Below are positions 39,864-47,809 of a DNA stretch of 64,000 nucleotides, in pieces (within the stretch, counting starts at the first letter, position 1; each line of letters opens with the position of its first letter). This DNA is from Advenella incenata. Its GTDB lineage: Bacteria; Pseudomonadota; Gammaproteobacteria; Burkholderiales; Burkholderiaceae_B. Location: contig NZ_SHKO01000002.1 of NCBI RefSeq assembly GCF_004217095.1, positions 248,001 through 312,000 of the forward strand, written 5' to 3'. The position numbers were made by a program, and so were the translations under genes. The notes beneath the pieces were generated by a model. It was given only the letters and a program-made list of their open reading frames with translations, was not told where the DNA came from and ran no database searches.

Positions 39864-41081
39864 ATGAATTCCGCTGCGCCAAGTCAACCCGCTCAAGCAG
39901 ATGCTGCCAAACCGGCTAAACTCAAACTTACGCCCACTGAACGCCGTGCCAGCACGACGCTGGCGTTGCTTTTTGCAGTTCGCATGCTGGGCCTGTTTCT
40001 GCTGACACCGGTTTTCGCCGATGCTGCCAAAAGCCTGAGCGGTGGCAGCAATGCAGTCCTCGTGGGGGCAGCCATTGGTGCGTATGGCCTGACTCAGGCC
40101 ATTTTGCAGATTCCGCTGGGCATGGCTTCGGACCGGTTCGGACGCCGCCCCGTGATTATTGCCGGTATGGTGCTGTTCATTATCGGCGGTATCGTCTGCG
40201 CGGTTAGTGATTCGGTGACCGGCGTTGTGATAGGCCGTTCCATCCAGGGGCTGGGCGCGATTTCCGCGGCCATTACCGCCTGGGTTGCAGACGCGACGCG
40301 CCCGGAAGTGCGCACCCGTGCCATGGCCATGGTGGGCGGCTCCATTGGCATTTCGTTTGCCCTGGCGCTGGTGCTCGCGCCCCTGCTGGTCGAATATAGC
40401 GGCCTGTCGGGCTTGTTCTGGGTTATTTCCCTGCTGGGCTTTGTCAGCCTGCTGCTGGCCACTTTTATTGTACCGGTCGTCCCCTTGCAGACGCCCGCCA
40501 TCCAGTCACGTGCGCAAGATGTCCTGAAAAATGGCGATCTCTTGCGACTGAATTTTGGCGTGTTCTGCCTGCACTGCATCCTGATGTCCATTTTCGTGGT
40601 GGCGCCGCCACTGCTGATCGGGTTAGGTGGGTTGACTACCGGTACGCTCTGGAAAGTCTACCTGCCCGTGATTCTGGCCTCATTTGTGGCCATGGTGCCG
40701 GTCGTTTTCTACACGGAAACGCGGCACGTGCACAAGCAGAGCCTGGAGTGGAGCGTAGCCGGCCTGGCAATCGTCATGGCCATCATGGCTTTTGCGACCC
40801 ATTCGTTTGCCGCCATTGTGGTGCTCTTCGTGGGTTATTTCGTGGCATTCAATATTCTGGAAGCGTTGCAGCCGTCTCTGGTATCGCGCGTAGCCCCGGC
40901 AGAGCACAAGGGGCTGGCCCTTGGGTTCTATAATATGTCTCAGGCGTTGGGTGTTGCCGCCGGGGGCGCGGTAGGCGGCCTGCTGGCCCGCTACACGGGC
41001 GTACCGGCGGTTTTTCTCATGGGCGCGGCACTGGCTGCCGTCTGGTTCTTTACCGCCAGAAGCTTCAAATCTCCTACGTAA
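39864..41081 (+). CDS. MFS transporter (YajR/DHA1-like)
   Basis: Twelve-helix major facilitator of 405 residues with an N-terminal cytoplasmic tail. Signature segments: LLFAVRMLGLFLLTPVFADA, AYGLTQAILQIPLGMASDRF-GRRP (motif A), IGRSIQGLGAISAAITAWVA (motif B-like Arg) and GGSIGISFALALVLAPLL (motif C, typical of exporters). It is divergent from uvrA and upstream of ssb, the same order found in Bordetella relatives. Drug or metabolite export is likely; the substrate is unknown. Confidence 0.88.
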   Translation: MNSAAPSQPAQADAAKPAKLKLTPTERRASTTLALLFAVRMLGLFLLTPVFADAAKSLSGGSNAVLVGAAIGAYGLTQAILQIPLGMASDRFGRRPVIIAGMVLFIIGGIVCAVSDSVTGVVIGRSIQGLGAISAAITAWVADATRPEVRTRAMAMVGGSIGISFALALVLAPLLVEYSGLSGLFWVISLLGFVSLLLATFIVPVVPLQTPAIQSRAQDVLKNGDLLRLNFGVFCLHCILMSIFVVAPPLLIGLGGLTTGTLWKVYLPVILASFVAMVPVVFYTETRHVHKQSLEWSVAGLAIVMAIMAFATHSFAAIVVLFVGYFVAFNILEALQPSLVSRVAPAEHKGLALGFYNMSQALGVAAGGAVGGLLARYTGVPAVFLMGAALAAVWFFTARSFKSPT

Positions 41082-41093
41082 AGCCCGCGGTGG

Positions 41094-41142
41094 CTATAAT
41101 GACCCAATTGTGCAAGCCGGTAAGGGCAGTTAATATACTGTC
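41094..41142 (+). promoter_or_regulatory. Candidate ssb promoter elements
   Basis: The 91-bp MFS-ssb spacer holds a perfect TATAAT (41094-41099) and a second -10-like TATACT (41137-41142) preceded by a TTGTGC. Either could give an ssb-specific transcript; neither has a consensus -35 at ideal spacing. A TCCTGA...TCAGGA inverted repeat overlaps the leader just before the AGGA ribosome-binding site. Confidence 0.35.
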
Positions 41143-41172
41143 CTGATTACCATCTACAGTCAGGATTTAACC

Positions 41173-41682
41173 ATGGCATCAGTCAATAAAGTCATACTCG
41201 TCGGCAATCTGGGACGCGACCCGGAAATTCGCTATTCACCAGATGGCGCGGCCATCTGCAACGTCTCCATTGCCACTACCTCAAACTGGAAAGACAAGAG
41301 TTCGGGCGAGCGCCGTGAGGAAACCGAATGGCATCGCGTGGTGTTTTATAACCGCCTGGCGGAAATCGCCGGTGAATACCTCAAGAAAGGCCGCCCGGTT
41401 TATGTCGAAGGCCGTCTGAAAACCCGCAAGTGGCAGGACAAGGACACGGGCGCAGACCGTTTCTCAACTGAAATCGTGGCAGACCAGATGCAAATGCTGG
41501 GTGGTCGCGAAAGTACAGGTACTGGCGGCATGGACGATGGCGGTTTTGGTGGCGATGAGTCTTATTCCGCTCCGCAACAACGCCAGGCACCCCAGCAGCG
41601 CAGCCAGGCACCGCAACAGCAGCGCCCCGCGCAAAAGCCTGCAGCCAATATCATGGATATGGACGACGATATTCCGTTCTGA
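41173..41682 (+). CDS. ssb: Single-stranded DNA-binding protein
   Basis: Tetrameric OB-fold protein of 169 residues acting in replication, recombination and repair. N-terminus [20 protein letters not shown], then [40 protein letters not shown] and [17 protein letters not shown]. The linker is Gly/Gln/Pro-rich, and the acidic tip MDMDDDIPF recruits partner proteins. A strong terminator follows, after which base composition changes abruptly. Confidence 0.97.
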
Positions 41683-41763
41683 ATGACATAAAGTAATTAG
41701 TGTTAAATTATTCTGGATATATCTTATAGTAATTCCTTGAATTAAATAAGAAAATTAAAATTT

Positions 41764-41800
41764 AAAGCCTTCGAATTGTGTAAACAACTCGAAGGCTTTT
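41764..41800 (+). terminator. ssb terminator, left edge of the AT-rich island
   Basis: AAAGCCTTCGAATTGT (41764-41779) pairs with ACAACTCGAAGGCTTT (41784-41799), 16 bp with one mismatch and a GTAA loop, ending in TTTT. A similar AAAGCCTTC/GAAGGCTTT hairpin occurs at 46701. Confidence 0.85.
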
Positions 41801-41848
41801 CTCTTTGCATAAGATTTGTACTTTTCATAAATCGTATATTGAGTGTAT

Positions 41849-41877
41849 TTGTCAATTTAAAAAATTTTGGCTATTCT
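41849..41877 (+). promoter_or_regulatory. Putative promoter P1 of the island
   Basis: TTGTCA (41849-41854), a 17-base spacer and TATTCT (41872-41877) in AT-rich DNA just after the ssb terminator. Transcription would begin near 41884 and lead into the 19-codon ORF at 41904. Confidence 0.5.
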
Positions 41878-41903
41878 AATTTCGTAAACCTTTTGGTGGT
41901 GTT

Positions 41904-41963
41904 ATGAGAATAGTGATAATTACACACAAATCAGCTGAACAAATACCAATAATTCTAGATTAA
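41904..41963 (+). CDS. Tiny ORF, 19 residues
   Basis: ATG at 41904 with a GGTGGT a few bases upstream encodes MRIVIITHKSAEQIPIILD and stops at TAA 41961-41963. It starts about 20 bases after promoter P1. The stop overlaps a strong TAAGGAGG sequence at 41961-41968. I recognise no family: it lacks the E-x-x-x-Y core of PqqA. It could be a small peptide, a leader ORF or chance. Confidence 0.25.
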   Translation: MRIVIITHKSAEQIPIILD

Positions 41964-41992
41964 GGAGGCTGCGCCTAGCGTAGATGGATTCC

Positions 41993-42022
41993 TTGACAAG
42001 TCTACTAATTCACGTGTTTAAT
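41993..42022 (+). promoter_or_regulatory. Putative promoter P2 of the island
   Basis: TTGACA (41993-41998), an 18-base spacer and TTTAAT (42017-42022). The -10 region overlaps a direct repeat, ATCTAAAC at 42021-42028 and 42030-42037, which could be an activator or repressor site at the transcription start. Confidence 0.55.
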
Positions 42023-42059
42023 CTAAACGATCTAAACAACACGATGGAAAGGAGTGTGT

Positions 42060-42098
42060 ATGCGCGCTCGTATAGCTTGTGTATGCCACCCTCCATAG
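42060..42098 (+). CDS. Tiny Cys-containing ORF, candidate leader peptide
   Basis: The ATG at 42060 has an AAAGGAG at 42048-42054, one of the best ribosome-binding sites in the window, about 30 bases after the start expected from promoter P2. It encodes only MRARIACVCHPP before TAG. The C-x-C-H-P-P ending and the strong translation signals suggest a regulatory leader peptide for the dehydrogenase locus downstream, for example one sensing cysteine or a metal. I cannot name a family; chance is possible. Confidence 0.4.
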   Translation: MRARIACVCHPP

Positions 42099-42262
42099 CG
42101 TGTTGCACCATGAATAAAGGGACGACTATAAGGTGCCTTGAGGCGATCTTGTGTGTAATTAGTTTTTGCTTCTTGTCAATTCAATTGATTTTAAAACTTA
42201 TAGTGTTGTGGATTTAATTGTTATCTAGCCTAGATTGCCATGGATGAGTGAAAGTTGAGGAA

Positions 42263-42740
42263 ATGACAAGTAAATTGAAGCTGAAAGTTAACGGCAGCAC
42301 GCAGGATGTCAACGTTGAGGCGAACACCATGCTGCTCTACGTCCTGCGCGATGCGATGGAACTGCACCGCCCCAAGTTTGGCTGCAGCCTTGTCATCAGC
42401 CCCGACGGCCTGCACAACCAGATAGAGGGCAACATCATCCAGTCGCTCAGCTGCACGAGGAAGTCACCTTCGACCACAGCCGCGTCACCAGCCTGGAGTG
42501 GACCGCCTACCCCATCCTGCACTTCTCCGAGATCCCCGACGACATAGAGATGGTGCTCGTCAACAACGACCCCGAACACAAGTCTACTGGTGGTGGCGAG
42601 CCCTCCACCAACCCCACCGGCCGCTGTCATCAGCAACGCCGTCTTTGACGCACACCGGTGTGCGCCTGCGCCAGATCCCATTCACGCCCGAGCGCGTCAA
42701 GGCTAAATTAGAAGATTTAATAAATGGTATTTATAACTGA
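42263..42740 (+). pseudogene. Remnant of a molybdenum hydroxylase (isoquinoline 1-oxidoreductase/aldehyde oxidase type)
   Basis: The first 41 codons match the N-terminus of the 2Fe-2S small subunit (KLKLKVNGSTQDVNVEANTM, LLYVLRDAMELHRPKFGC) but stop before the remaining cluster Cys residues. The frame then continues directly into the C-terminal end of the Moco large subunit (ISPDGLHNQIEGNIIQSLS). After a frameshift near 42450 the next frame reads LHEEVTFDHSRVTSLEWTAY-PILHFSEIP, then AAVISNAVFDA in another frame, and finally TGVRLRQIPFTPERVKAKLE in a third. So two subunit genes have collapsed by a large deletion and acquired at least three frameshifts. The fragment is GC-rich inside AT-rich DNA, and its last codons (LEDLINGIYN) already belong to the AT-rich sequence. 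Confidence 0.85.
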
Positions 42741-42749
42741 GGAGATAAA

Positions 42750-44873
42750 ATGAATTCGCGAACAGCTGTAGTTATTATGTCGTCTATGGTGTTCGGTATG
42801 GCAATTACCGGCGCTCATGCGGAAAATAGCGGACCTAAATATAAGCCAGTCACAGAGGATAGAATAATAGAAAATTCAACAAAAGGTGCGGAATGGCTAA
42901 CAACTGGAATGGACTATTATGAGACGCATTATAGTCCATTGAATAAGATAAATAAATCTAACATTAAAGATTTGGGTCTAGCTTGGTCTTATGATTTAAA
43001 AAGTAGCCGAGGAATAGAATCAACCCCAGTAGTCGCGAATGGCATAATGTATGTAACCTCTAACTGGGGGGTCGTTCATGCCATTGATGCTAAATCTGGA
43101 GAAAGCATATGGAAGTATGATCCAGAGGTGGATAAGGGGAAATGGGGCGTCAAAGCATGCTGTGATGCGGTAAATAGAGGCGTTGCCTTATCTGGAGATA
43201 AGGTTTATGTAGCTGCATTTGATGGGAGGCTGATCGCTCTGAATGCATCTACCGGGAAGCTCGTTTGGGAGAAAGATACATTCGATGGAGAAGAGGGGTA
43301 CTATACGATAACTGGTGCGCCAAGAATAGCGGGAAGTCATGTAGTTATAGGTAACGGAGGAGCGGATTATTCTGGACGTGGGTATATTACATCTTACAAT
43401 GTAGATACTGGAGAAAAGGAATGGAGATGGTACACCGTTCCTGGAAACCCAAAAGAGCCCTTTGAGAATGAAGCGATGAAGAAGGCGGCTGAGACTTGGG
43501 ACCCAGCTGGGGAGTGGTGGAAGAACGGTGGCGGTGGAACTGTCTGGGATTCTATGGTATATGACCCAGAGCTTGATACGTTATATATTGGCACAGGCAA
43601 TGGAAGTCCATGGGCGGCAGCAGTTCGGAGCCCAGCGGGCGGAGACAATCTATATCTAGGGTCTATCGTTGCTATAGACCCTAACAGCGGGGAATATAAG
43701 TGGCATTATCAAGAGACGCCAGGCGATAATTGGGACTATACATCGGTACAGCCAATAATTATGGCTGATATAAAAATAGATGGAAAATTAAGAAAAGTAT
43801 TATTGCATGCTCCGAAGAATGGATTCTTCTATGTGATCGATAGAGAGACAGGGGAGTTTATATCCGCTAAAAATTATATGGACGTCACTTGGGCGAAAGG
43901 CTATGGTCAGGATGGAAGGCCAATAGAATTTGCGGCAGCAAGAGACACAAAAAATGAATATTTGCAGATACCTGGACCGTTGGGCGCACATAATTGGCAG
44001 CCTATGTCATATAGCAAAGATACGGGGCTTGTTTATATACCGGCTCAGCAAATACCAGTAACATATAAGGATCAAATGGATTGGCGCTTCAAAGATCCGA
44101 AACCCGGGGTGAGAGGCTCGTTTATTGGTAGGGACGAAGCAAAAACAATGGGGAGTAGCGACGCTGTTAGCGAGTTTGGTGAGCTAGTGGCATGGGATCC
44201 AGTATCAAAAAAATCGCGTTGGAGGGTTAGATATGATGCCCCTTGGAATGGAGGTGTGTTGTCTACCGGTGGGGATTTGGTATTCCAAGGAACGTCTGAT
44301 GGGAAATTTATAGCGTATGCTGCAGAGACCGGCGATAAATTATGGCAGTTTGATTTGAATGGTGGGGCAGGAGCTGGAGCAGCAACATATGAAATTGATG
44401 GAGAGCAATATATTTCAATACCAGTAGGCTGGGGTGGTGCATATGGATTGCCGAGAAGGGTGGCTGAACAGCATGGATCCGGCACTGTATATACGTTTAA
44501 GCTGGGCGGTGATGCCGTTTCTCCGGGAAGTTTGCAGGAAGGAACAGGAAAATTAGTTGAAGGCGTTGATTATGACCCGTCGAAAATAGAACTTGGAGAG
44601 AAGCTCTATACGAGTTCCTGTGCAACTTGTCATGGAGCCCCAGGGGCTACAAAAGGCGGAGCGTTGCCAAATCTGGCGTACGTGGATAAAAATATATTGG
44701 AGAATCTGGGAATTTTTGTATTCAAAGGACCATTCTATAGCTTAGGGATGCCGGATTTTACTGACAAGCTGTCGCAAGATGATGTTAGCGCCATAAAAGC
44801 ATATATACAGGGGACTGCGGATGCTATAAGGGAAAGTGGCGGTAAAGAAGTCAAGGATGAAACAGTGCATTGA
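42750..44873 (+). CDS. PQQ-dependent quinohemoprotein alcohol dehydrogenase (type II, Ca-type)
   Basis: Periplasmic alcohol dehydrogenase of 707 residues: signal peptide ending AITGAHA, an eight-bladed PQQ propeller, and a C-terminal cytochrome c domain. Hallmarks: the vicinal disulfide in VKACCDAV, tryptophan-docking repeats (GSPWAAAVRSPAGGDNLYLG), the catalytic Asp in TPGDNWDYTSVQP, and CxxCH in SSCATCHGAPGATKGG with a Met ligand in GMPDF. The residue two places after the catalytic Asp is Thr, not Asp, which argues for calcium rather than a lanthanide. A GAGGAGAT precedes the ATG. Codon use is AT-rich and unlike the core genes, a sign of transfer. No PQQ synthesis genes are in the window. 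Confidence 0.93.
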   Translation: MNSRTAVVIMSSMVFGMAITGAHAENSGPKYKPVTEDRIIENSTKGAEWLTTGMDYYETHYSPLNKINKSNIKDLGLAWSYDLKSSRGIESTPVVANGIMYVTSNWGVVHAIDAKSGESIWKYDPEVDKGKWGVKACCDAVNRGVALSGDKVYVAAFDGRLIALNASTGKLVWEKDTFDGEEGYYTITGAPRIAGSHVVIGNGGADYSGRGYITSYNVDTGEKEWRWYTVPGNPKEPFENEAMKKAAETWDPAGEWWKNGGGGTVWDSMVYDPELDTLYIGTGNGSPWAAAVRSPAGGDNLYLGSIVAIDPNSGEYKWHYQETPGDNWDYTSVQPIIMADIKIDGKLRKVLLHAPKNGFFYVIDRETGEFISAKNYMDVTWAKGYGQDGRPIEFAAARDTKNEYLQIPGPLGAHNWQPMSYSKDTGLVYIPAQQIPVTYKDQMDWRFKDPKPGVRGSFIGRDEAKTMGSSDAVSEFGELVAWDPVSKKSRWRVRYDAPWNGGVLSTGGDLVFQGTSDGKFIAYAAETGDKLWQFDLNGGAGAGAATYEIDGEQYISIPVGWGGAYGLPRRVAEQHGSGTVYTFKLGGDAVSPGSLQEGTGKLVEGVDYDPSKIELGEKLYTSSCATCHGAPGATKGGALPNLAYVDKNILENLGIFVFKGPFYSLGMPDFTDKLSQDDVSAIKAYIQGTADAIRESGGKEVKDETVH

Positions 44874-44890
44874 TGTTTCAGGGGAAATAG

Positions 44891-44925
44891 TGCGCCCAGC
44901 CATTATTGTGGCTCGGGTGCATTTT
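44891..44925 (+). terminator. Terminator-like hairpin between the PQQ dehydrogenase and ecotin genes
   Basis: TGCGCCCAGCCA (44891-44902) pairs with TGGCTCGGGTGCA (44909-44921), with one G-U pair and one bulge, followed by TTTTATTT. The ecotin-like gene starts 20 bases later, so its expression would depend on read-through. Confidence 0.6.
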
Positions 44926-44944
44926 ATTTATGAAGAGGAATAAA

Positions 44945-45433
44945 ATGATTAGGGTTGCTTGTGCACTGTCGCTGATAGCAATGGTATTGTTGTTACCTGC
45001 CGAGGCGGCTTATGCCGATGAGGCAAAAGAGGGGAATGACATATTAAGGCAATACCCAGATGCCAAAGAAGGGTATATTAGATACATAATAAATAGTCAA
45101 AAAATAATAGAAAAAGATGTGCAAAAGATCGAGGTGTGGGCGTTCAAAAATATTGAGGTAAATTGCCGAAAAAATAAAATAGGTGGAGAATTCAATCCTA
45201 AGCTAGTACCGGGTAGGGGGCTGATGTATTGGGAGTTGGACACTAATAATATATTATATGGAGAACAGGGTAAGTGCGGCGATGATTGGAAAAGAAGAGT
45301 GGATGTGAGGGCAAAAAAAGACGTCATTCATTTAAATAGAACTGTTCCTGTAGTAGTAATGGTGCCCGAAGGGTGGGGTGTAAAATATAGAGTGTTGCGC
45401 GAAGAGAAAGAAGAGCAAGCATCAGAAGGTTGA
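44945..45433 (+). CDS. Ecotin-family periplasmic protein
   Basis: 162 residues from the ATG at 44945 (AGAGGA upstream), with a signal peptide ending EAAYA. The mature part follows the ecotin (periplasmic serine-protease inhibitor) pattern: QYPDAKEGYIRYIINSQ, VWAFKNIEVNCRKNKIGGEF, LVPGRGLMYWELD, and VPVVVMVPEGWGVKYRVLRE. The two Cys that form the ecotin disulfide are at NCRKN and GKCGDD. The reactive loop before the second Cys (YGEQGKC) differs from E. coli ecotin (M-M-A-C), so protease specificity, if any, is different. It sits 71 bp after the PQQ dehydrogenase gene, shares its AT-rich codon use and is followed by an attC-like site. The family call is from remembered pattern, not a search. 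Confidence 0.75.
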   Translation: MIRVACALSLIAMVLLLPAEAAYADEAKEGNDILRQYPDAKEGYIRYIINSQKIIEKDVQKIEVWAFKNIEVNCRKNKIGGEFNPKLVPGRGLMYWELDTNNILYGEQGKCGDDWKRRVDVRAKKDVIHLNRTVPVVVMVPEGWGVKYRVLREEKEEQASEG

Positions 45434-45466
45434 TTACTCATGCCTGTGTTGCCAGAGTAGACGGAG

Positions 45467-45530
45467 GTCTAACAGTTCATTCAAGTCGAAGGCGCTTCGC
45501 GGCAAAGCCGATCCTGCTCAATGCCTAGAT
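45467..45530 (+). mobile_element. attC-like integron recombination site
   Basis: The segment begins GTCTAAC (45467-45473, matching the attC R'' form RYYYAAC), continues AGTTCATTCAAGTCGA and a core CGCTTCGCGGC that closely resembles class 1 integron attC (59-base) elements, and ends CTCAATGCCTAGAT. The right-hand core GTTRRRY is degenerate (CCTAGAT), so it may be inactive. Its orientation is that of a cassette whose gene is the ecotin-like ORF, 33 bp upstream. No integrase gene is visible. Confidence 0.6.
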
Positions 45531-45538
45531 GAGACAAT

Positions 45539-45805
45539 TTATTTTTCTAAATTAGGCAGATTAGCTATTCTCTCAAGATGCGTAACTGCTGCGGCAACGG
45601 CTATTAAGATTGCTGGCTGAAAGGCGGCTGAGGCGATCCCACCGAAGAGGCCGAGCCAAAGCATGACTCCAGATCCTGGCCCAGAGTTCAGCATTTCAAT
45701 AATTCCCATGACCACGCCCAGGGCCTGAATGATAAATATCACTATAGCGACAATGCAAAGTAGTCGAGGTGCTATTCGAATTAGTTGGATGTCAATTTGG
45801 GCCAT
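45539..45805 (-). CDS. Small two-helix membrane protein, unknown
   Basis: 88 residues from the ATG at 45805, which has AAGGAG six bases upstream; a longer frame to 45859 lacks such a site. Two hydrophobic segments are visible: LCIVAIVIFIIQALGVVMGI and, after a Gly-rich turn (NSGPGSGVMLWLGLFGG), FQPAILIAVAAAVTHL. The ends are polar. I recognise no family. It lies just right of the attC-like site and opposite in strand to the ecotin gene, as orphan cassette genes sometimes are. Confidence 0.6.
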   Translation of the reverse strand: MAQIDIQLIRIAPRLLCIVAIVIFIIQALGVVMGIIEMLNSGPGSGVMLWLGLFGGIASAAFQPAILIAVAAAVTHLERIANLPNLEK

Positions 45806-45860
45806 ACTCCACTCCTTAACTGATCTTTGAGAAAATATATTTAAGTAATCATCGAACAAA

Positions 45861-46070
45861 TCAGAATGTGTGCCTGTTCTGGTTAAAAACAGGTCTGCTG
45901 ATATGGACCACTTGCTTAAATACTACAAATAAGCAGCTGCCGCCGATAGTGTAGTTTATCAATGGTTTGACAGTAACGCTCTCCTTCCATTTATAGTACG
46001 GTTTTAAATCAGCAGCAACCATAGGATTGGAAACTCCGGTTTGCAAAGTCTCGTCGTCAAATTTAAGCAT
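45861..46070 (-). CDS. Doubtful small ORF, 69 residues
   Basis: Open frame starting MLKFDDETLQTGVSNPMVAA with one possible hydrophobic stretch (LINYTIGGSCLFVVF). There is no Shine-Dalgarno sequence and no family match I can recall. It is directly upstream of, and on the same strand as, the two-helix membrane protein. Confidence 0.2.
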   Translation of the reverse strand: MLKFDDETLQTGVSNPMVAADLKPYYKWKESVTVKPLINYTIGGSCLFVVFKQVVHISRPVFNQNRHTF

Positions 46071-46567
46071 AATATTAAAATTTAAATAGTAACTATTACG
46101 TCAAGCCCTATCATTGTCGTATCTACAGTCCAAGAAGCAGTCGATGATCGACAGGCTTTCATTCCTCATGACCAGTTCAGGGCTAAGATGTCCAACGTTT
46201 GAGTTCGTCTTCCATGATCCTATTCATCTGTGATTTTCTCCTATGATCACATGAGCTGTTTTTCTCTTAGCCATTACATAGAAGACATGGATATGAATGG
46301 TGCCCCACCTGCGGCCGGGTCCGTGTGCCCAGTTCTGATAGGTAGGTTTGCTAAGCCGCTGCGACCGTCTCACATCATCATTCATCAGCGAGTAGCCGCT
46401 AGGCGCAAGCGATTCCGGGGATTTGTGATGAGAGTAAATTTTTGCAGCTCAGTTACGGACACGATATATATTTTAGACAAACGGAGTTTCGGCAAATCGT
46501 TTGTTAGACGGTAATGCGCGGTCACTATGGGCAAATGTAAACAAATAACCCAAATTCAATATAGATA
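46071..46567. other. AT-rich stretch without a recognisable gene
   Basis: About 500 bp of mixed composition. It contains an ACAAACG...CGTTTGT inverted repeat (about 46478-46502) directly followed by GTTAGAC (46503-46509), which fits the integron core-site form GTTRRRY, but no second core site is placed to make a full attC. A 94-codon open frame at 46230 has no ribosome-binding site or family features. Confidence 0.35.
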
Positions 46568-46738
46568 TTGACAAATAGAAATCGAAAAATTAGCTATTTT
46601 TTTGAAATTACTGCATATCAGATGATATTTACATTTTTTTGTACACATAATCATTTTGATCGCGCAAGTGCGCGGTTGATTTAATATCAGCTTGATCCCG
46701 AAAAGCCTTCAATGACGGTCAGTTGTTGAAGGCTTTTT
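46568..46738 (+). ncRNA. Putative small RNA with promoter and terminator
   Basis: TTGACA (46568-46573), a 17-base spacer and TAGCTA (46591-46596) form a candidate promoter. No ORF follows. The RNA would contain a CGCGCA-AG-TGCGCG hairpin (46661-46674) and end at an intrinsic terminator: AAAAGCCTTCAA (46701-46712) with TTGAAGGCTTTT (46726-46737), 12 perfect pairs and a T tract. Predicted length about 135 nt. The terminator is strong; the promoter -10 is weak. Confidence 0.4.
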
Positions 46739-46927
46739 GCTGTCTACTCCAAAGCCCTGGGTGCTCTCTTGATGCACTGGTTGCCATTGAGCGCCGATGA
46801 CGTCGGAAGCGCTAGCGGATATTGGTGCAGCCCCCAACGCAAGCACATTCATGGACAAAATCACCTTGCACGGATATTATTGAGACCCGTTCACCCCAGA
46901 AGCGGCCACCACCACGGTTAATGATCC

Positions 46928-47809
46928 ATGGACGATATTGCGCGCACTTTCAATGAGCTACGCCCACGATTGCAGAAAATCGCCTATCGCATGCTGGGAT
47001 CGGTAGCCGAAGCAGAAGATGTCGTGCAGGATGCCTGGCTGCGCTGGCATGGCGCCGTGCAGGATCACATCGAAAATGTCGAAGCCTGGCTCGTGGCGGT
47101 GACGACACGGTTGTCGATCGATCGGCTGCGCGCAGCCAAGTCGCAGCGCGAGCATTACGCAGGCATTTGGCTGCCCGAGCCATTCATGATGGAATCGCCG
47201 CCCACACCTGAACAGATCAGCGAACGCGCGGACGACGTGTCCATGGCTTATCTGATGCTGCTCGAACGCCTGACACCTGAAGCGCGTGCGGCCTTTCTTT
47301 TGCATGAGGTTTTTGACGCGGACTATGACCAGATCGCGGAAATTCTTGGAAAAACACAGGCAGCCTGTCGACAGCTGGTGAGCAGGGCGCGTACGCAGTT
47401 ACGCAATGAGCAGCCGCGGTTTACCGTGCCGCCTGAAACGCATCATCGCCTGCTGCAAACCTTCGCACAGGTGCTCGAGCGTGGCGATTTTGCCGGAATC
47501 AACGCACTGCTGGCCGAAGATGCCGTGCTGATGGGCGACGGTGGCGGCAAAGTGACCAGTTTTCCCAAACCCATGGTTGGCGGACGGCGTATTGCACAGC
47601 TATTCATGGCCGCATCGCTACGTTACAAAACCGGGCTTCATATTCAGATGGTTGTGCTCAATGAGCAATGGGCCTTGTTGCGTTACATCCAGGGTCAGCT
47701 TGAATCGGCGTTAATGTTTGAAGTGGATGGTGAGCACATCAACCGCATTTATGTTCAGCGCAATCCTGACAAGCTCGTTCGCATTGCTACAGCAGTGACG
47801 CAACGCTGA
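46928..47809 (+). CDS. ECF41-type RNA polymerase sigma factor (SigJ-like)
   Basis: 293-residue extracytoplasmic-function sigma factor. Region 2 is LQKIAYRMLGSVAEAEDVVQ-DAWLRW, region 4 is LTPEARAAFLLHEVFDADYD-QIAEILGKTQAACRQLVSRA, and a SnoaL-like C-terminal extension follows from about residue 175. The extension has the group's two signatures, DGGGK (GDGGGKVTSF) and NPDKL (QRNPDKLVRI); in ECF41 proteins it modulates activity in place of an anti-sigma factor. The next gene is a carboxymuconolactone-decarboxylase-family protein, the usual ECF41 partner. I could not find a convincing TGTCACA/CGTC promoter near it. Confidence 0.92.
   Translation: MDDIARTFNELRPRLQKIAYRMLGSVAEAEDVVQDAWLRWHGAVQDHIENVEAWLVAVTTRLSIDRLRAAKSQREHYAGIWLPEPFMMESPPTPEQISERADDVSMAYLMLLERLTPEARAAFLLHEVFDADYDQIAEILGKTQAACRQLVSRARTQLRNEQPRFTVPPETHHRLLQTFAQVLERGDFAGINALLAEDAVLMGDGGGKVTSFPKPMVGGRRIAQLFMAASLRYKTGLHIQMVVLNEQWALLRYIQGQLESALMFEVDGEHINRIYVQRNPDKLVRIATAVTQR

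Follow-up and report, generated by a model that had tools for sequence, protein, structure and literature searches.

A quinohemoprotein alcohol dehydrogenase gene and a diverged ecotin-family gene at the ssb end in Advenella incenata

How did the genes for a quinohemoprotein alcohol dehydrogenase and an ecotin-like protein come to lie side by side behind ssb in Advenella incenata, and do the two proteins belong together? The pair sits in an AT-rich patch of a 64,000-nucleotide stretch of a 4.9 Mb genome (the window; G000:C2:248001-312000, contig NZ_SHKO01000002.1). A preliminary description had seen there a single transferred island with integron debris, in which the two genes may form a functional unit. 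We compared the window with a set of 10 Advenella genomes (G000–G009, G000 included). Our reading, which we consider probable, is that a shuffled accessory gene for alcohol oxidation and a co-travelling, diverged ecotin gene lie at an insertion hotspot at ssb, behind the decayed left end of a GInt-type element (GInts are tyrosine-recombinase islands with a ginABCD operon, and they can land at the 3′ end of ssb, according to PMC5385486). The foreign DNA is real and had been correctly noticed; the type of element, the borders and the integron debris need correction.

Borders and contents of the foreign DNA

GC content was 0.443 over 41683–45503 and 0.561 for the window outside 41683–46927. In 1-kb steps, it was 0.43–0.47 from 41,000 to 47,000 and 0.56–0.61 just upstream. 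GC at third codon positions (GC3) was 0.376 for the dehydrogenase and 0.380 for the ecotin gene, against 0.60 for ssb, 0.61 for ECF41, 0.68 for uvrA and 0.69 for the major facilitator superfamily (MFS) gene; the sharp shift in composition and codon usage described earlier was confirmed. However, composition alone is no border marker, because 45504–46927 is equally AT-rich (GC 0.434) though largely native.

The borders came from homology. Of the 9 other Advenella genomes, 8 gave matches that span ssb and end at 41678–41683; the ninth (G003) is uninformative, as its ssb runs off the contig and its match ends at 41551. In G007, ssb and ECF41 are ~1.55 kb apart and the interval lacks the cargo, holding instead the native terminator, a DUF805 gene and a gene for an 88-aa protein. 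The window and G007 have in common 45503–45940 (86% identity), 46354–46469 (88%) and everything from 46839 onward (98%). From the ssb border and these native stretches, the foreign part is essentially 41683–45503. Horizontal acquisition of the cargo, as the preliminary description had proposed, is supported by the ssb border and by the cargo-less G007. We rejected one island at 41801–46740, because G007 has part of this DNA as native sequence: the left border lies at the ssb stop, the cargo ends at ~45503, and the small minus-strand gene that had been counted as cargo is native. The AT-rich patch is a mosaic of a left-end remnant, a cargo block, half of an attC site and native DNA (Table 1). 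Two further stretches of uncertain origin, 45941–46353 and ~46470–46780, are counted with the foreign part.

The cargo block (41961–45436) comprises broken molybdenum-hydroxylase genes, the dehydrogenase gene and the ecotin-family gene. The hydroxylase debris reported earlier was upheld by a weak N-terminal match to Fe-S subunits, which fell below curated cut-offs, and by a longer copy with MoCoBD_2 in G006; the pieces have decayed to differing degrees. The G006 block lies at another place in the genome, with 85% identity over 41961–42390 and 95% over 42512–45436. In G005, 42409–45771 is found at 99% identity behind ssb, starting 32 bp past the shared ssb end. G000 and G005 are identical over 42909–44908, 97–99% identical elsewhere in the stretch they share and 88–99% upstream of the island; the simplest reading is a recent exchange centred on the dehydrogenase. 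At the G005 junction (L072:2640-2690), a CCTG common with the debris marks the point at which the native terminator of ssb is halved (by eye), and the cargo lies directly behind ssb. Since half of the terminator is missing, ssb transcripts in G005 may read into the dehydrogenase gene.

The integron debris of the preliminary description shrank to one half of an attC site. Positions 45464–45503 are 90% identical over 40 bp to an attC beside aadA16 in plasmid integrons, in all 15 of the matches listed (3364 plasmid records had some match, with E up to 1). This half is joined at 45503 to native DNA that also occurs in G007, so the second half of the imperfect palindrome that makes up an attC is absent. 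The half-site starts 30 bp behind the ecotin stop, as might be expected had the dehydrogenase or the ecotin gene, or both, arrived as integron gene cassettes. We nevertheless think cassettes very unlikely: there is only half a site, 45464–45535 folds no better than its shuffles (z +0.98), and the half-site is present in G005 but not in G006, where the match stops before it, at 45436.

Table 1. Features of the AT-rich patch and its left flank, in window coordinates
Feature	Position	Strand	Basis
ssb, chromosomal target gene; 3′ end is the insertion point	41173..41682	+	PF00436, E 3.1e-41; end of the homology with relatives, 41678-41683
GInt-like left end with leader and substitute terminator for ssb (26% GC)	41683..41960	+	match to Serratia pPM120-2; alignment with further left ends linked to ssb
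Hairpin after the ssb gene, interpreted as an element-borne terminator that replaces the native CAGGGG one	41764..41806	+	folding; relatives have the native terminator
Remnant of ginA: 19 initial codons (MRIVIITHKSAEQIPIILD) running into a stop inside the cargo	41904..41960	+	alignment with ssb-linked left ends
Candidate sigma-70 promoter upstream of the cargo, TTGACA-18-TTTAAT	41993..42022	+	by eye; identical hexamers and spacing in the G006 copy
Molybdenum hydroxylase/aldehyde oxidoreductase debris	42248..42735	+	weak Fe-S subunit match; blastn matches to genes annotated as molybdopterin-binding
Type II quinohemoprotein (PQQ and heme c) alcohol dehydrogenase	42750..44873	+	profile and structure-relative matches
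Stem-loop between dehydrogenase and ecotin genes, possible attenuator	44890..44922	+	folding
Ecotin-family protein, 162 aa, atypical reactive loop	44945..45433	+	PF03974, E 1.6e-28; loop comparison
Half of an aadA-type attC	45464..45503	+	90% identity over 40 bp
Native 88-aa protein gene, outside the cargo	45539..45805	-	45503-45940 86% identical to cargo-less G007
AT-rich stretch (37% GC) with no G007 match; perhaps what is left of an element end	46470..46780		G007 comparison

In the right-hand part of the patch, a short repeat at 46189–46279 has an 81% identical copy elsewhere in the genome, and 46199–46278 has an 83% identical copy in the A. kashmirensis plasmid pWTk445, at a site without a listed gene.

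The dehydrogenase and its ecotin-like neighbour

The earlier identification of a pyrroloquinoline quinone (PQQ) alcohol dehydrogenase was borne out by a match to TIGR03075 (E 5.6e-188); the best solved relative is the quinohemoprotein alcohol dehydrogenase 1kb0 (E 1e-278), of Comamonas origin. The protein has both a PQQ propeller and a C-terminal cytochrome c domain, as type II enzymes do. Residues 32–695 align with 1kb0, and the two share a Cys-Cys pair, a WDYT segment (presumably the mark of a Ca-type enzyme) and a C-terminal CxxCH heme motif; unlike 1kb0, the enzyme is encoded by a low-GC gene in a foreign block with an ecotin gene downstream. PqqC was found in 6 of the 10 Advenella genomes, all three carriers of the block included, and in 0 of 14 control genomes. 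The dehydrogenase should oxidise an alcohol in the periplasm and pass the electrons via its heme to the respiratory chain.

The neighbouring protein belongs to the ecotin family, as had been claimed: PF03974 matched with 99.6 bits (cut-off 22.2). The NCBI equivalog for the serine protease inhibitor ecotin (NF002987) gave 66.1 bits and lies below its cut-off of 162. Like other ecotins, the protein has two conserved cysteines and a leader-like N-terminus (by eye), and it should be exported. A similarity-based collection of 40 distinct ecotins (37 non-block sequences and the three block copies) served to compare the reactive loop. Thr at P2 and the secondary-site Trp in a GWG motif were present in 37/37 non-block ecotins and Met at P1′ in 36/37, whereas each was found in 0/3 block copies. 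The latter have Glu at P2, Gly at P1′ and Arg in the GWG position (GRG), with LNRTVP in place of YNSRLP; P1 is Gln in G000 and G006, and Lys in G005. E. coli ecotin is represented by PDB 7cbk and other entries.

Between the three copies, the loop varies more than the remainder of the mature protein (5 of 13 positions differ against 10 of 124 elsewhere; p 0.006), in a test of three related copies for which the loop range (102–114) and the leader end were picked by eye after the alignment had been viewed. A structure prediction from two sequences had a mean pLDDT of 49 and was not used. The protein may still be an inhibitor, since P1 also varies in other ecotins (M, L, R, K, V) and since ecotins described from Campylobacter carry Leu at P1 while their secondary site is not conserved (PMC7773321).

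The dehydrogenase and ecotin genes are adjacent in 3 of the 10 Advenella genomes (G000, G005 and G006), at two places. Among 26 dehydrogenase loci in the genome collection, one has an ecotin gene, and that one is from Advenella sp. FME57; the other 25 do not have the pair, 4 of these having <1 kb behind the gene. For ecotin, 101 relatives were searched (13 had a match), as were 369 genomes of the class (7) and 398 of the phylum (23), each set with G000 in it. Where a non-block ecotin had flanks, no dehydrogenase match came within ~1.5 kb of it. Those Advenella genomes that carry an ordinary ecotin (G001, G003, G004 and G008) are without the block. On plasmids, 73 records carry a dehydrogenase relative at E ≤1e-100, all at <60% identity, and no ecotin is annotated in the three neighbourhoods read. 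Among the open-licence papers searched, none linked ecotin with alcohol dehydrogenase and PQQ, or with quinohemoprotein. The pair thus recurs within Advenella and at none of the other dehydrogenase loci; as far as searched, the pair is a rare, genus-restricted association with an unusual ecotin.

Both genes are under purifying selection between G000 and G006, with dN/dS about 0.2. For the dehydrogenase, dN was 0.025 and dS 0.133 (ratio 0.19 by NG86, 0.24 by YN00); for the ecotin gene, dN was 0.032 and dS 0.154 (0.21 by NG86). The excess of synonymous changes was significant in each (Fisher, p 1e-15 and p 1e-4, respectively). Between the two genes, 44874–44950 folds with -28.2 kcal/mol (z -5.1), and the two changes in the G006 stem-loop both keep a standard pair (by reading).

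These data bear on whether the association has a function. The ecotin-like gene could be an unrelated neighbour that co-travels with the dehydrogenase gene simply by sharing one DNA block. Such hitch-hiking needs only one acquisition, and fits both the absence of the pair from the 25 non-Advenella loci and the three annotated neighbourhoods and the lack of a dehydrogenase near non-block ecotins; it fits less well with the selection on both genes while the adjoining hydroxylase decays, or with the intergenic hairpin and spacing, which are nearly kept between G000 and G006. We regard it as a serious contender that stops short of being probable. A repurposed ecotin fold might alternatively be a dedicated periplasmic partner, protecting the dehydrogenase, helping it mature or blocking a specific periplasmic protease. 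The genes adjoin in all three copies, have similar GC3 and encode proteins that both have leader-like N-termini (by eye), and the atypical loop recurs in each copy, but the other members of the dehydrogenase family that were examined lack the pairing, the interaction is hypothetical and the structure model is too poor for use. A dedicated partner therefore seems unlikely to us. We are slightly more doubtful of the extended form, in which recruitment as a partner freed the loop to evolve and a mobile two-gene module for alcohol oxidation is spreading in Advenella. A functional partnership is possible, being compatible with co-travel and purifying selection; the link seen is adjacency only.

A GInt-like left end behind ssb

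The preliminary description had missed the type of element, which is likely a decayed GInt left end. Positions 41656–41960 matched the Serratia plasmid pPM120-2 at 70% identity over 311 aligned positions (E 2.6e-26), and the matched plasmid stretch spans an ssb end into the first integrase gene, with tandem tyrosine recombinases. The stretch 41755–41812 folds with -20 kcal/mol (z -5.5); a consensus scan reported the hairpin on the minus strand only and did not report the sigma-70 hexamers ahead of the cargo. No GinB-like protein turned up in G000, G005 or G006, in a search without a positive control. Because only 19 ginA codons are left, the element looks immobile; without a ginABCD operon, the window holds a GInt remnant and not a GInt.

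Bardaji et al. 2017 (PMC5385486) report that GInts insert at ssb ends and that attL overlaps the end of the gene, and an ssb-end GInt island is termed a Tn6571-family transposon in PMC10121019. The window resembles these islands in its site-specific border at the ssb stop, its AT-rich left end with a hairpin, its ginA-like start and the cargo behind. It differs in that the recombinase genes are reduced to 19 codons and no attR or right end is recognised.

An apparently intact element lies behind ssb in Advenella G008, with four overlapping genes for proteins of 391, 532, 675 and 158 aa. The first clears the Phage_integrase cut-off, which the second and third do not reach, and the fourth matches DUF6262 weakly, again below cut-off; att-like ends sharing CCGTTTTA are ~12 kb apart (by eye). 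The third protein has an HHFRH stretch, which together with its length would fit a large recombinase, and thus a strand-biased circularizing element (SE) as the source of the left end: SEs have four core genes at their left end, including one ordinary and one large recombinase (PMC10214605). That paper places SEs only in Gammaproteobacteria, without Tfp or Srap homologs in Betaproteobacteria (where GInts do occur), and sets aside Tfp matches of <550 aa. Advenella is betaproteobacterial, and the second gene encodes 527–532 aa in the four ssb-linked relatives measured. Insertion at ssb ends is reported for GInts, and 'ssb' is absent from the main text of the SE paper. By host and second-gene length, an SE is less likely than a GInt, and we consider this origin improbable.

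Two large genes (1366 and 624 aa) lie behind the G008 recombinase operon (L123:670-6637), and a defence-library search gave no family for either. The operon proteins of G008 (L079:2423-7664) are 93–97% identical to those behind ssb of the E. coli IncF conjugative plasmid P3 (L153:4829-10070). The element is directly behind the plasmid's own ssb in 4 of the 4 plasmids read; this suggests that the ssb genes of plasmids act as vehicles from one chromosome to another. In G009 (L076:6250-6670), the DNA behind ssb is AT-rich, has a different hairpin and may represent another element left end, one that lacks recombinase genes.

Assembly of the locus and its meaning

Taken in order, a GInt-type element would have landed at the ssb 3′ end in an Advenella host and put its own terminator behind ssb. 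Its recombinase genes would then have been deleted, leaving 278 bp. Directly behind these lies the foreign low-GC block with its decayed molybdenum hydroxylase, its dehydrogenase (for which the genome has its own PqqC) and its ecotin-like gene. The ecotin-like protein would most likely be a diverged inhibitor of changed specificity, travelling with the dehydrogenase.

Several observations weigh against this explanation. In G005, the block lies behind ssb without the GInt-like left end, and in G006 it lies elsewhere, adjoining short repeats found at other places in Advenella genomes. GInts carry attL and attR as imperfect direct repeats; a convincing attR-like repeat of the ssb end, or a right end, was not found in the window, a repeat search included, so delivery of the block by the GInt-type element is unproven. 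GInt right ends are AT-rich and 0.2–0.4 kb long; 46470–46780 is AT-rich and unmatched in G007, but is located beyond native DNA, and its relatives in plasmids were at chance level only (two Borreliella matches at E 1). The missing canonical loop features argue against ordinary inhibitor function, and the changes between G000 and G005 are too few to show selection (p 0.39 and 0.21).

The locus illustrates how, in a single genus, accessory metabolism builds up at an insertion hotspot at the ssb end and how it decays there. It also presents a member of the ecotin family in which the hallmark loop residues are missing and which nevertheless shows purifying selection. Were the pair functional, periplasmic quinoproteins and a protease-inhibitor fold would be connected in a new way.

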